From Thunnus maccoyii (taxonomy: Eukaryota > Chordata > Actinopteri > Scombriformes > Scombridae), in the NCBI RefSeq assembly GCF_910596095.1, contig NC_056548.1, positions 10,875,151 to 10,939,150 on the forward strand: a stretch of 64,000 nt of DNA. The letters run 5' to 3'. A model generated the notes under the pieces. It was not told where the DNA came from and ran no database searches. It saw nothing but the letters and a program-made list of their open reading frames with translations. Positions 16,301 through 22,300 of the stretch are shown here, in pieces (the stretch's first letter is position 1; each line of letters opens with the position of its first letter). Position numbers and translations under genes: made by a program.

Positions 16301-19300
16301 GTTTAGGAAATCATGTATTTTCATAGGTTGTCAAAAAAAATCTGTTCCAACATTTCTGAACAGAAGCGGCACAAAAAAAAAAAAAAAAAAAGACACTACT
16401 CAACCAAGAATCTGAATCTTGACATCAATTTGGAGCTGCCATGATAAATGACAATCTGATTTGTGTACAAACAAAAGTTTCTTTTCATATTTGAACGAGC
16501 TACTCCCTGTAGAAGTCTGCATAACACCTGCCCATCTCAGAAAAGTATTTATGTTTCTGCCTCCTTTTTATTCTTAACCAAAACACAGCAATTACAGGTG
16601 CAGCTCAACTTTGGGTTTTAAAGTAAAGATAGAAGCTAAAAGCTTAAATTGAGAGGCATTCATCTGTAACCCCTTCTGAGTCAACATTACATCTGATACT
16701 AGATCAATCTGTGCTCCATTGCATGTCATACGGTGAGCGTGGATGCATTCATTTCTATACCAGACAGACTTTCTAAAACTCCTCTGATGGATGTGACCAC
16801 ACAAGAACTAACAGGAAGTTTTGAAACTCACTTGGAGAGGACAAATGGGGAAACAGGAGGGACATAAAATGAAGCACAAATGAATAGATGGAGAGGGGAG
16901 CATGTACACAGGATAGAGGACAAGACAAAGAAAACTGGAAAGAATGAGAAAGGAGAGATGTTAGAGAGAGATACAGGAGGCACCTCTGATGACGGGATCC
17001 TTTTCATGGTAGAAGGACGCCTCCTATGTCACCTAATGGGAAGCTACAAGCTAAGCAGTTTATATCTAAACAAGTAGGACGTATATATAATTCATAAGAG
17101 ATAAACTATCACAACGAACTAATCTGAAATTGTAATAGAAAGTTTGATTTTATAATTTAGACAGGCTGGCATTCGCTTAATCCATTTATGAACAGCAATC
17201 CTGGCTGAAAAACTGACTGATTAGATGTGTGAATCCTCAAAAGATTTCAGCTTTCCTGAGCTTCTCCTTGACAAGGTCACCCTTCGCTCGTCGGGGAGTT
17301 TAGGTCCCAGTTTCATTAAGCCTTCATTTGAGACAACTGATTCAGGAAAATCGTTCACGTCAGGAGCCTTTTTCTTGTCAAGCTAGTATATAAATGACAT
17401 CAGTGCAATTTAACTAACCCTGGGTATTTTGGTGCACCGCTGGACACACAGGTTCAAGCCTGCAGACCAGGTGCATCAGGGTCTCTGAGAAGGTTGCCCA
17501 AGTCAGCTATAATTCACAATGTAAGGGTGCCCCCTGGTGGTGGCCCAGTCCACTGTGGTCCACAGAGACCCAGGGCCAATATAGGCCCTGCAGGACCTGC
17601 TGCCCAAAATAACATTCCTCCACCGCGGAGAGGACGACCTCGTTTCTTCTGCCAGCCGGAGAGGAAAGGAGGAGAGGAGGAGGAAGAGAGGAGGTGACCC
17701 ATTTACAGAGACCGGGCACCAGAATGTAGGACTTTGTGTTCATTAGGGGTTGTGTTATGTGTGGTACGATTGCTGTTGGTGGCAGGAGGTAAGAGAAAGT
17801 GTAGGACTATGAGGAGATGATATAATGGTAATGACTTTTAATTTCTAGGGAGGGAAAGGTCAAGAGGAGTACAAATGGGATATAGACACTCAAGTTAAAT
17901 GGATAAATTAAAAGTCACAGATCATTTCTTTCCATTAATGGGGAGGACAAATCACATAATATGGTTTATTTGGGGCTCAGGACAAAAACACATTATTTGA
18001 CTTAAGAGTTAATGATGTGACAACATAACATGGAGGGATTGAGCCAAAAGAGGCATCTTTCTACCTGAAAATGATGCTTTGCAAGTCGAAGGGGTACTCT
18101 ATGATTCCTGTGGTGGGGATGCGCACCCTGAGCACATCCTGCTGAGTGGGAAGATAGTTGGAATCTGCAATACGATCCAGATCGGAAAGATAACTACAGG
18201 CAGGCCCGGTCGAGAAAAAGGGGGAGATAAACAGAAAAAAAAAGACAGAAAAACAGTTATATAAAGCGTGACAGGCAATTATTGCAACCCCCCTGCCATT
18301 CCAGGAAGTGTGGATGAGTCCTGTTGAGGAAGCTTCACAGAAAAGGCCACATCTCAGAAACACAAAGGTGTTAGTCAGTGTCACTGCTCCACCAACACAC
18401 TCGTTCCATAAAACCCACAAGACTTTGGAGGTTAGCCGTTAACCTGTGACTTTAGCTTCATTTGACTCTATTTCAATTAACAATTTGCAGGTTGTGGATT
18501 ATGTCGCAGGCAGTGAGGTGGTGTCAGTGACTGTGGTAGCAGTGACTTCAGCAGCAGAAAGAGCAGCACCTGGAATAAGATAAAGAAGGTTTGGACAAGT
18601 ATTATTTCAAAGAAAGCAGGAAGCTTATTTCAATTAAATTAAAAAGGATTCCAATTATTCTGTATTTTAAGCAGTGTCCAATTGATTCACTTCCTGGAGA
18701 ATCTTTGACATCATTGCCTAAATCCTTCTTCATCTGGTATTTGGTAGCTGCTCCCCACAAGCTTCACAGTGCAGCATGTCTGGCCTTTTTTTTTCCTGGA
18801 GCCAGAACCTCTGCACAGTTCTGAACACAAACCACTGATCTCTAATCAGGTTAACCAACCTGGCCCTCAGGCTCATTTGATCTAAATACAACAGTATCTT
18901 TATTTTCCTCTGTGGGACAACTGGATCTATCCTTGTCAAGTAGCTTGTGCATAAGGCACTTGCAGGTTAGTAACTGTCCTGTAATTTCAATGCCTGACTT
19001 CTGGCATAGTACAAATATTACACCTGTCATTTAGTCTTTTTTTTTTGGCCTACAGTTTATCAAAACCTATGCGCCAATGACAGAGCATTTAGCTCCCCTC
19101 TAAACCAGTGTGTTAATATCCTGACAGTCATCAGTGGTTTTTGTCCTCTAGTCATGGTGATGCTGCAGTCCTGGTGCCACAGGGGTACCTGAAGATGACG
19201 TTCTCCAGGTCAAATGGGTACTCTATTATGCCCGTGGTGGGAACACGGACCCTCAGCACATCCTGCTGGGTGGGAACGTATCCCTCCGCAGTCACACGGT

Positions 19301-22300
19301 CTATATCGCTAAGGTAACTGGAGATATACATGAACATTGTGGATAACACTGAAATGAAGACATTTTCAATGTATCTTTCTCACTCACTCATACACATGAA
19401 AAAAACAAATGCATATTAACCATCACATTGACATTCTCGACACAGCAAGCACACCTTCATGAATGCAAACCTGGAGTAGCATTTAACTGTAGTACAGGAA
19501 GTCTACAACCAGGGGGCACTGTAAAGTGAGACAAGTGCCTTAAGGCCATTTAGCCTGGGGTTATACATTATTACCATATAATTATGGCAAACACAAACAA
19601 CTGCAGAACAAGAGGCTGACACATTTGGCTCTAAACAACAAGGTGCAAACACAATGGGTGTACACCTTGCTATTTTTTATTTTGAATCTGTGGTTTGTAG
19701 TACACTTCTTACCATTGTACTTGCATGAGTAGTGACATTCTGACGTCAAACACAATGCTCGACCTTAGATTAAATCAGAGTGGATTGGGAGAGCAGTTAT
19801 ATTCTGTGTTAGCACTTGCTAAGAGGGGACATTACTATGTGTTATGCATTCAAGACAGGTAAATTTAGAAATATCTGGTTAGTGTGTATGTGGACACTTA
19901 AAAAAAATACTAGAGTACGTTCATTACCCACGGAGACCAAGAGAGACACGATAGTGGCTTCAACATTACCGTTACTGCTCTCTATTAACTGGATGGGAGG
20001 GGATAAATTCTTGATCAGGCCTCCCAGTCTCAGCTCCAGTCCATTTCAGTCTGACTTTAAGTCTCAAGAAACCCCAATGACACAGTGTACTAATAAAAAA
20101 TTAATCATAATACACTGCAGAAAAATTACCATGGTGGACTGGTTTGTAGGAGACTATTAAACTGTGAAAAAAGGTTGGTAAATTTTTAAATGTGTTAACC
20201 GATTTGGCCAGTGGATGAAAAGCTAGTATGTCACCCTGCCCTGTATACATTACAACACCCACAAAGTAATTATATTGTCTCAATATACAAACAATCAAAC
20301 ACACCCACATTACATTAAAAACTGTTGTCTTGTGCTCTGGAGACCACTCTGTCTCCTTGCCACATATGACATTACACATTTCCTTCTTATTTTTTGTGCT
20401 GTCATAAAAAGGTGATTATAAAAAAAATAAAGTTATTTGAAAAATCCATCCAATAGCAACATATCTTTACAGAAACAATGTTGATGTGTTTTTCTGACTT
20501 TCTTTCAAAAGTTTTTCTGATTTTGATGAACTGACTCTTTAAATTGTATCTGCAAGTTCACCGTCACATTAAGAAAAGCACAGACACACCCACAGCACTG
20601 AAAACCTGGATGTCTATACGGTTGCCACAAACACAAACACTCACCTATTTCCACGTAATGCATTAGGGTAAGAACAAAGTAAACCAAACTAAACCTTATT
20701 AGTAGGACTGCCCCCTAAAAGTCAACGAAACGTTAGTCAACGAGAAGACTCTTAGTCGGCCAAGTTTTCATTGGTCTGTTGGCCGCGGGAAGGATTAGTT
20801 AGTTATTAGATAGTTAATATGTCGGGCAGGAAATCCAAAGAGTGGTATTATTTCGAAAGGGTAAAGGACGACCCCAAGAAGGTGACATGCAAACTCTGCA
20901 GGTAAACATTCGCCTATCATTCATTGACCTCAAACATGACTTATCATCTGAAACACATAAGTAATGTTAGCCTAACTTTAGCCACAGCATGGCTTTTCTA
21001 AGATTAGATAGCCTAAATTAATAAATACATTGTCATATGCACAAGTAGGATTATCCAAGTGTTCGTGGGGAATGTGGCGAAGCTAAATTACCTCACTTAC
21101 TGCATGTTTAACTTAATGTGCATTTCTCTCAAACCATTTTTTGATGCCCCAAAAATATACAGTATATTCAAATAACTAAATTAATATCATAAACGTGCAA
21201 TGAATAGTTGACTACTGGCTTGAACTATGACTATAAACCTTTAGTTGGGGGCAGCTCTACTTATTAGGCACTAATTTCTTGTCTAATCAATGTAAATTTG
21301 GATTTGCAAGAATTTAAACCAAATCATTACAAATTCAGCATTTCGCAGAACTAATAGCAACACCAATAAAACTATTAGTTCCCAAACTAGCATCACAGAC
21401 ACACACACACACACAAAAATTACATAAGCACACTCAGATTGTATCAGACATTCACACAAATACCATTTTTAAGACAGACATCACATCCCTTGTCTGCACA
21501 CATACAGAGAGACAGACAGACGTACTATTTAGTGGAGTCAGAGAGCTGGTACTCTCGGCGGCGGTCATAGGCCTCCTGGATCCCCGGGTCGGACCAGAGG
21601 CATTTGATAGCTGCGATGTAGGGGTGGTCAAACCCATTTATCTTCTCAATGTCCACCTCCTTCACCAGCATGGCATTAGACTGGAGAGACAAAGGCAAGA
21701 CAAGGGAAGGAAGAGGAGATGAGGAGCAGAGAAAAATCCAGATGGAGGATAATGATGAATAGAGAAGAGCAGTAAGACAGACAACAGGGCAGACAGAAAT
21801 AATGAGTGCAAAGCAACCAGATGTATTTACTCAAATATCATTTTCAGTTTCAGTTAAGACATTTGAGTCATCTGTAGATAGTTCTCTTCACTGTCTGTTT
21901 AGACTATGTGGCTGATCCTAACCACATCCTTATTTTACTTATTTCAAGGACAATATTTGTGCTGGATAAATTGACTGCAACATACATTTTTCCTGGGAAA
22001 AACCTAAGACATACAATTGGTCTAACTGGGAAAAATTGTAGCTAAAGAGGTTGTATGTTGACACATGGCTTAAAAAAAGAGCAGCATAATTGACATGGAT
22101 CTATATGAAAATGTCAGATAATTATTGTAAAGCATTTAGAAAAATGTAATGTTCAACAGACATGCGATAGGGGGAAAACTAAAAGTAAACTCCTCAGTGT
22201 TTGACACAAAGTTGACACGCCGCCTTTCAACTGTCCAACTATTCAATGTTTTTCATAGCTGTAATTTGATAACACTATGTAACACAAGTTTTGTTCCTGG

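Follow-up and report, generated by a model that had tools for sequence, protein, structure and literature searches.

Several Gα genes carry alternative tandem exons, and the closest described case lies in vertebrate GNA11 and GNAQ themselves. Lokits et al. (2018) report that exon 4 is duplicated in GNA11 of teleosts, gar and coelacanth, that coelacanth and gar also have the duplication in GNAQ, and that teleost GNAQ has lost one exon-4 variant (PMC5896119). In their proposal one or the other exon is included, and on the basis of nucleotide trees they place the duplication before 2R; the exon-4 block is described as contacting Gβγ, RGS and PLC (PMC5896119). The original prediction had assumed that such a pair was unknown in vertebrate Gq genes, which is contradicted by this work. 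A literature search, mostly of papers outside subscription, returned no other report on this vertebrate exon pair in the texts accessible. Insect Gq genes also have alternative exons, with products described as restricted in expression (PMC4553527, PMC5765363). For the exons 4a and 4b of OGDH, a mutual exclusion of steric origin has been described, in which the branch points are closer than some 50 nt to the donor (PMC7969005).

Here we analyzed a 64-kb window, that is, the whole stretch of DNA under study, to which all coordinates refer. We are highly confident that it contains the ancient, already described exon-4 pair of vertebrate GNAQ and GNA11, housed in gna11 (probably gna11b) of a fish that is probably a percomorph, and that the spliceosome would pick either the first copy (4a) or the second (4b).

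The gna11 gene and its two exon-4 copies

The minus strand of the window carries a seven-exon Gα11 gene, whose spliced model yields a 359-aa product with either exon 4. In transcriptional order, coding exon 1 lies at 35317..35452, exon 2 at 24086..24270 and exon 3 at 21526..21680, the last bases of which (TA) are the first two of a split Tyr codon. Exon 4a, of the GNA11/GNA14 type, follows at 19189..19317 and exon 4b, of the GNAQ type, at 18065..18193; the intron between them (18194..19188) measures 995 nt and has an AG-free zone of 99 nt upstream of the 4b acceptor. Exon 5 (15364..15493) opens with the G that completes Arg202 (AG|G), exon 6 spans 14928..15081, and exon 7 (13396..13586) includes the stop codon. 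The predicted junctions, from 21526 to 19317 or 18193 and from 19189 or 18065 to 15493, proved correct and give the full 359 aa each way.

The assignment of the gene to gna11 was borne out as well: exon 4a and its counterpart in the Siniperca chuatsi alpha-11b record P0039 are identical, and over the full 4a isoform the two proteins mismatch at 7 positions outside one gap. Among the matches listed, the alpha-11b proteins of Gouania (P0073) and Siniperca are among the closest, and the top match, P0059 from Scophthalmus, is a 606-aa fused model named G(q) at its source. The host gene is probably the gna11b paralogue. By sequence, the closest chains with a solved structure belong to Gq and G11.

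Both copies of exon 4 are as originally read: each has 129 nt, is open and in the same phase, and is bounded by an ag acceptor and a gt donor, with 995 nt between the two. They share 92 of 129 nt and differ at 11 of 43 residues (164, 167-171, 173, 184 and 197-199 in 359-aa numbering), with 15 further codons differing silently. At positions 197-199, 4a reads ENV and 4b reads QSI; the change of Val184 in 4a to Ile in 4b adjoins Arg183, as had been pointed out. We take the 43-residue block to cover strand β2 and linker 2/switch I, which contains Arg183, as well as the final helix of the helical domain. Comparison of 4a with 4b by the Nei-Gojobori method gave a dN of 0.20, a dS of 1.47 and a ratio of 0.14, in agreement with the proposed long-held selection on both copies, where dS is near saturation and rests on 30 synonymous sites. 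The likeness between the 300-nt intron flanks of 4a and 4b was not above that of 200 shuffles. A recent duplication or an assembly artefact, which we also considered, is ruled out by the 92/129 nt identity, the unlike flanks and the conservation of the pair.

When the exon-4 peptides were searched against the window with tblastn (E up to 10), no third copy was found; 4a and 4b alone scored well, all other matches having E values of 2.5 or more. No second Gα gene was found in the window by tblastn with the 4b isoform, both exon peptides and one gna14 protein. The 13.4 kb downstream of gna11 (1-13395) likewise gave no second Gα gene such as gna15 with the gna14 query. A conserved head-to-tail order of GNA11 and GNA15 has been reported, and gna15 may lie beyond the edge of the window.

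Other features of the window are also on the minus strand. Upstream of gna11 exon 1, at 38252-41023, are remnants of a DDE transposon (DDE_Tnp_4, E 9e-13; HTH_Tnp_4 under cut-off). Pieces of a gene for tubulin polyglutamylase complex subunit 1 are found at 44275-46291, where one ORF matches Pfam TPGS1_C with E 4e-60 and another with E 2e-5, under the curated cut-off. Three ORFs at 50262-53945 match myo-inositol-1-phosphate synthase (Pfam NAD_binding_5) and are presumably ISYNA1-like.

Distribution of the exon pair

Three protein searches together provided 256 different proteins for a survey. They used the exon-4 region of isoform 4b (best 120 of 588 matched proteins), the same region of isoform 4a (best 120 of 1247) and sea urchin Gq (best 120 of 7971). 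The pair, for which a check of other fish had been suggested, is present with both versions and in the same order in at least 40 records, 39 of them from named vertebrates (P0002 to P0045 without P0003, P0005, P0006 and P0043). As the same pair recurs in the same order in many fish records, it is not a product of chance. The sequence pattern misses the first copy in two of the 40 (P0027 and P0033), where it was assigned by position; a profile scan detects it. Among these matches, the first copy has Val184 in all 40 records and the second has Ile184 in 27. The 13 second copies with Val come from 12 elasmobranch records named G(q), representing 10 species, and from one Anableps record. At least 12 elasmobranch GNAQ records carry both versions. 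The accessible text of Lokits et al. (PMC5896119) contains no mention of these elasmobranch GNAQ pairs; they are, together with the picture of reciprocal loss discussed below, what our survey adds.

The profile scan, run over 257 records, detected two or more exon-4 copies in 96 of them, divided into 40 of vertebrate type, 49 of pancrustacean type and 7 that were excluded. The latter are P0003, P0005, P0006, P0049 and P0055, all models that join two genes or pieces of them; P0046, a mole-rat model in which a piece is repeated; and P0050, from Takifugu, whose second copy is partial. The scan agreed with the pattern-based count and added one partial pair, that of P0050. The searches place two-copy proteins at the top of their lists, so that the counts demonstrate a wide distribution of the pair and do not give the frequency of double inclusion.

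Two side observations concern single records. In the mammal and amniote models P0003, P0005 and P0006, a Gα of GNAQ type is joined to one of GNA14 type in a single chain, probably because of read-through between adjacent genes or faulty annotation. A second, diverged exon-4 copy is present in P0044, a 402-aa protein of the teleost Triplophysa tibetana that is named G(q), whereas one variant is reported lost from teleost GNAQ.

Ancestry of the two copies

An exon-4 tree was built from 71 hand-picked peptides (65 distinct, 42 columns), of which two come from the window and the others from the set of 256 proteins; the 11a and 11b labels were assigned by us. Fifteen vertebrate second copies fall on one side of a 98/98 branch, a side that also contains the single exon of GNAQ from tetrapods and teleosts and that of the shark record P0088. 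Fifteen first copies fall on one side of an 89/73 branch (not starred), together with tetrapod GNA11 and GNA14. First and second copies are therefore split across genes and classes in the free tree, and the description of 4a as GNA11/GNA14-like and of 4b as GNAQ-like agrees with their placement (89/73 and 98/98, respectively), though 42 columns are few. Forcing tetrapod GNAQ with the first copies made the tree 12.0 log units worse, but with a p of 0.084 the AU test does not reject it.

This grouping suggests that the GNA11-like and GNAQ-like types likely reflect reciprocal loss of an ancestral pair. One can go a step further and read the switch-I difference between tetrapod Gαq and Gα11 as a frozen splice choice: the ancestor would have used both exons, in tetrapods GNAQ would have retained 4b alone and GNA11 4a alone, and fish gna11 would still switch between them. 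We consider the chances of this extended reading to be evenly balanced.

Alternatively, the exon could have been duplicated in GNA11 among bony fish and, separately, in GNAQ among sharks, and not before 2R. With the shark GNAQ pair held as its own clade, the AU test gave p 0.35 at a lnL 4.9 lower, from 42 columns, which leaves room for such a history. The free tree nevertheless unites the second copies of both genes at 98/98, and the pre-2R date of Lokits et al. was reached from nucleotide trees (PMC5896119), so that we regard separate duplications as unlikely.

Proposed choice between the two exons

Depending on whether exon 3 is spliced to 4a or to 4b, two 359-aa Gα11 proteins would result that differ only in the 43-residue block, and one exon 4 per transcript would be the normal state. 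4a and 4b would likely be mutually exclusive, with a choice that would be regulated by cell type. If both copies are spliced out, the TA of exon 3 and the G of exon 5 form TAG at the junction, and two further introns lie downstream of this stop. Since the phase-2 junction creates TAG, RNA that skips both exons would be expected to be removed by nonsense-mediated decay. Inclusion of both exons leaves an open frame of 402 aa. A bar on double inclusion by the reading frame is ruled out by this frame, and exclusion would need regulation or clearance instead. It may also be leaky or absent, and models of roughly such double inclusion occur in databases.

Candidate means of exclusion were sought in the introns and splice sites. 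Judged by the intron layout, a steric block of the OGDH kind, with a distant branch point, is unlikely, as the length of the intron and its AG-free zone place the predicted branch point well away from the donor of 4a. The donors of 4a and 4b are ordinary, each with 6 of 9 consensus matches in a gene whose other donors have 5 to 8, and so give no hint of regulation. No sign was found of intron-intron pairing as a splice switch: the longest complementary runs of 11, 13 and 12 nt were matched in 26, 3 and 18 of 60 shuffles, and the 13-nt run is mostly a run of T. Two RBFOX-type motifs (TGCATG) are present in the introns.

Frequent inclusion of both exons would generate a third product, a 402-aa Gα with a 43-residue insertion that might be inactive or regulatory. 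In keeping with the open frame, the copies are exactly 43 residues apart in 35 of the 40 two-copy records, as in zebrafish alpha-11a (P0016, 400 aa), and all 35 have the Ser at the junction that AG|T predicts. These numbers are silent on abundance, however, owing to the ranking of the searches, and with an uninterrupted frame a gene predictor can produce such models. For Anopheles gambiae, a form enlarged by 43 aa through its two alternative exons was reported and taken as a premature transcript, and in Lygus such a form was undetected (PMC4553527). We hold frequent double inclusion to be very improbable. Modelling with AlphaFold2 (30 sequences) gave a mean pLDDT of 50.5 for the 402-aa relative P0009; as the 359-aa control P0073 was also poor (58.6), this result says nothing on double inclusion.

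Functional implications

Variation between 4a and 4b would tune nucleotide release or the contact with effector, RGS or Gβγ and would not create a new function. The most likely role of the block would be a tissue-wise tuning of the exchange rate or of partner contact.

The original prediction also named an altered sensitivity to cyclic depsipeptides, for which the grounds turned out to be weak. Residue 184 does contact YM-254890 and FR900359, but V184M alone scarcely changed FR sensitivity (PMC6463727), and the single changes reported there and in a second study altered inhibitor action at most 7-fold (YM, I190N; PMC6463727, PMC7070167). V184I looks milder than V184M. With V184M near-neutral and single changes limited to 7-fold, a large difference in drug sensitivity from V184I is unlikely.

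Fish genes hold both versions of switch I that tetrapods seemingly fixed apart in Gq and G11. Side by side, they allow a direct test of whether this block by itself alters G-protein behaviour, and if the frozen-choice reading is true, fish gna11 is a natural test bed for the role of the block. Possible pitfalls are single-isoform models of fish gna11, two-copy models in databases and knockouts aimed at one exon 4. In a zebrafish study of 2025, the guides for gna11b and gnaq are given at exon 4 and that for gna11a at exon 3 (PMC12045641).

Comparison with known systems

The same exon is doubled in insects, crustaceans and copepods among the matches listed. Like the fish pair, the 4A/4B exons of pancrustacean Gq (Drosophila dgq, Lygus and Anopheles variants) are tandem copies of 43 residues at the same protein position; they differ from it in having LEEIRF in most first copies and LRARAPTTGI-like second copies. 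As a separate observation, the second Gq copy has strongly diverged and the first is conserved in Drosophila innubila, hydei, arizonae, novamexicana and busckii (P0161 to P0165), the diverged copy reading, for example, PTSGIQQYSFEL in P0163 in place of the PTTGILEYPFDL of other records. In the free tree, the arthropod second copies cluster (91/81) with chelicerates, molluscs, amphioxus and echinoderms, which each have a single exon here, and not with vertebrate second copies. The profile scan of 257 records found no invertebrate outside Pancrustacea with two versions, and a second version was found in none of the chelicerate, onychophoran, priapulid, rotifer, mollusc, annelid, echinoderm, hemichordate and amphioxus records examined, where a single version is weak evidence because one isoform alone may be listed. 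The separation of the two pairs in the tree and these single-version records suggest that the pancrustacean pair arose by a second, independent duplication. One ancestral bilaterian pair would fit the shared exon position, the 43-residue spacing, the order of an LE and then an LD/LQ version and a constrained tree of first-with-first and second-with-second copies, which is not rejected (p 0.65, lnL 1.64 higher than the free tree), but it is barely credible given the 91/81 placement, the single-version invertebrates and the many losses it needs in molluscs, chelicerates, echinoderms and others.

Within vertebrates, exons 7-8 of GNAO are, like the gna11 pair, alternative tandem exons of a Gα gene (PMC5896119); they encode the C-terminal receptor-coupling part, whereas the gna11 pair encodes switch I. 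OGDH exons 4a/4b, described as a vertebrate mutually exclusive pair with distant branch points (PMC7969005), differ from gna11 with its 995-nt intron and 99-nt AG-free zone. The gna11 pair itself is real, well conserved and already known, and this window adds one more fish. Compared with exons 4.1 and 4.2 of GNA11, its host is GNA11, exon 4 is present twice, intact and in the same phase, and both variant clusters are represented. Gene, exon, tandem arrangement and proposed alternative inclusion are the same as those described for GNA11/GNAQ 4.1/4.2 (PMC5896119), and nothing essential differs.
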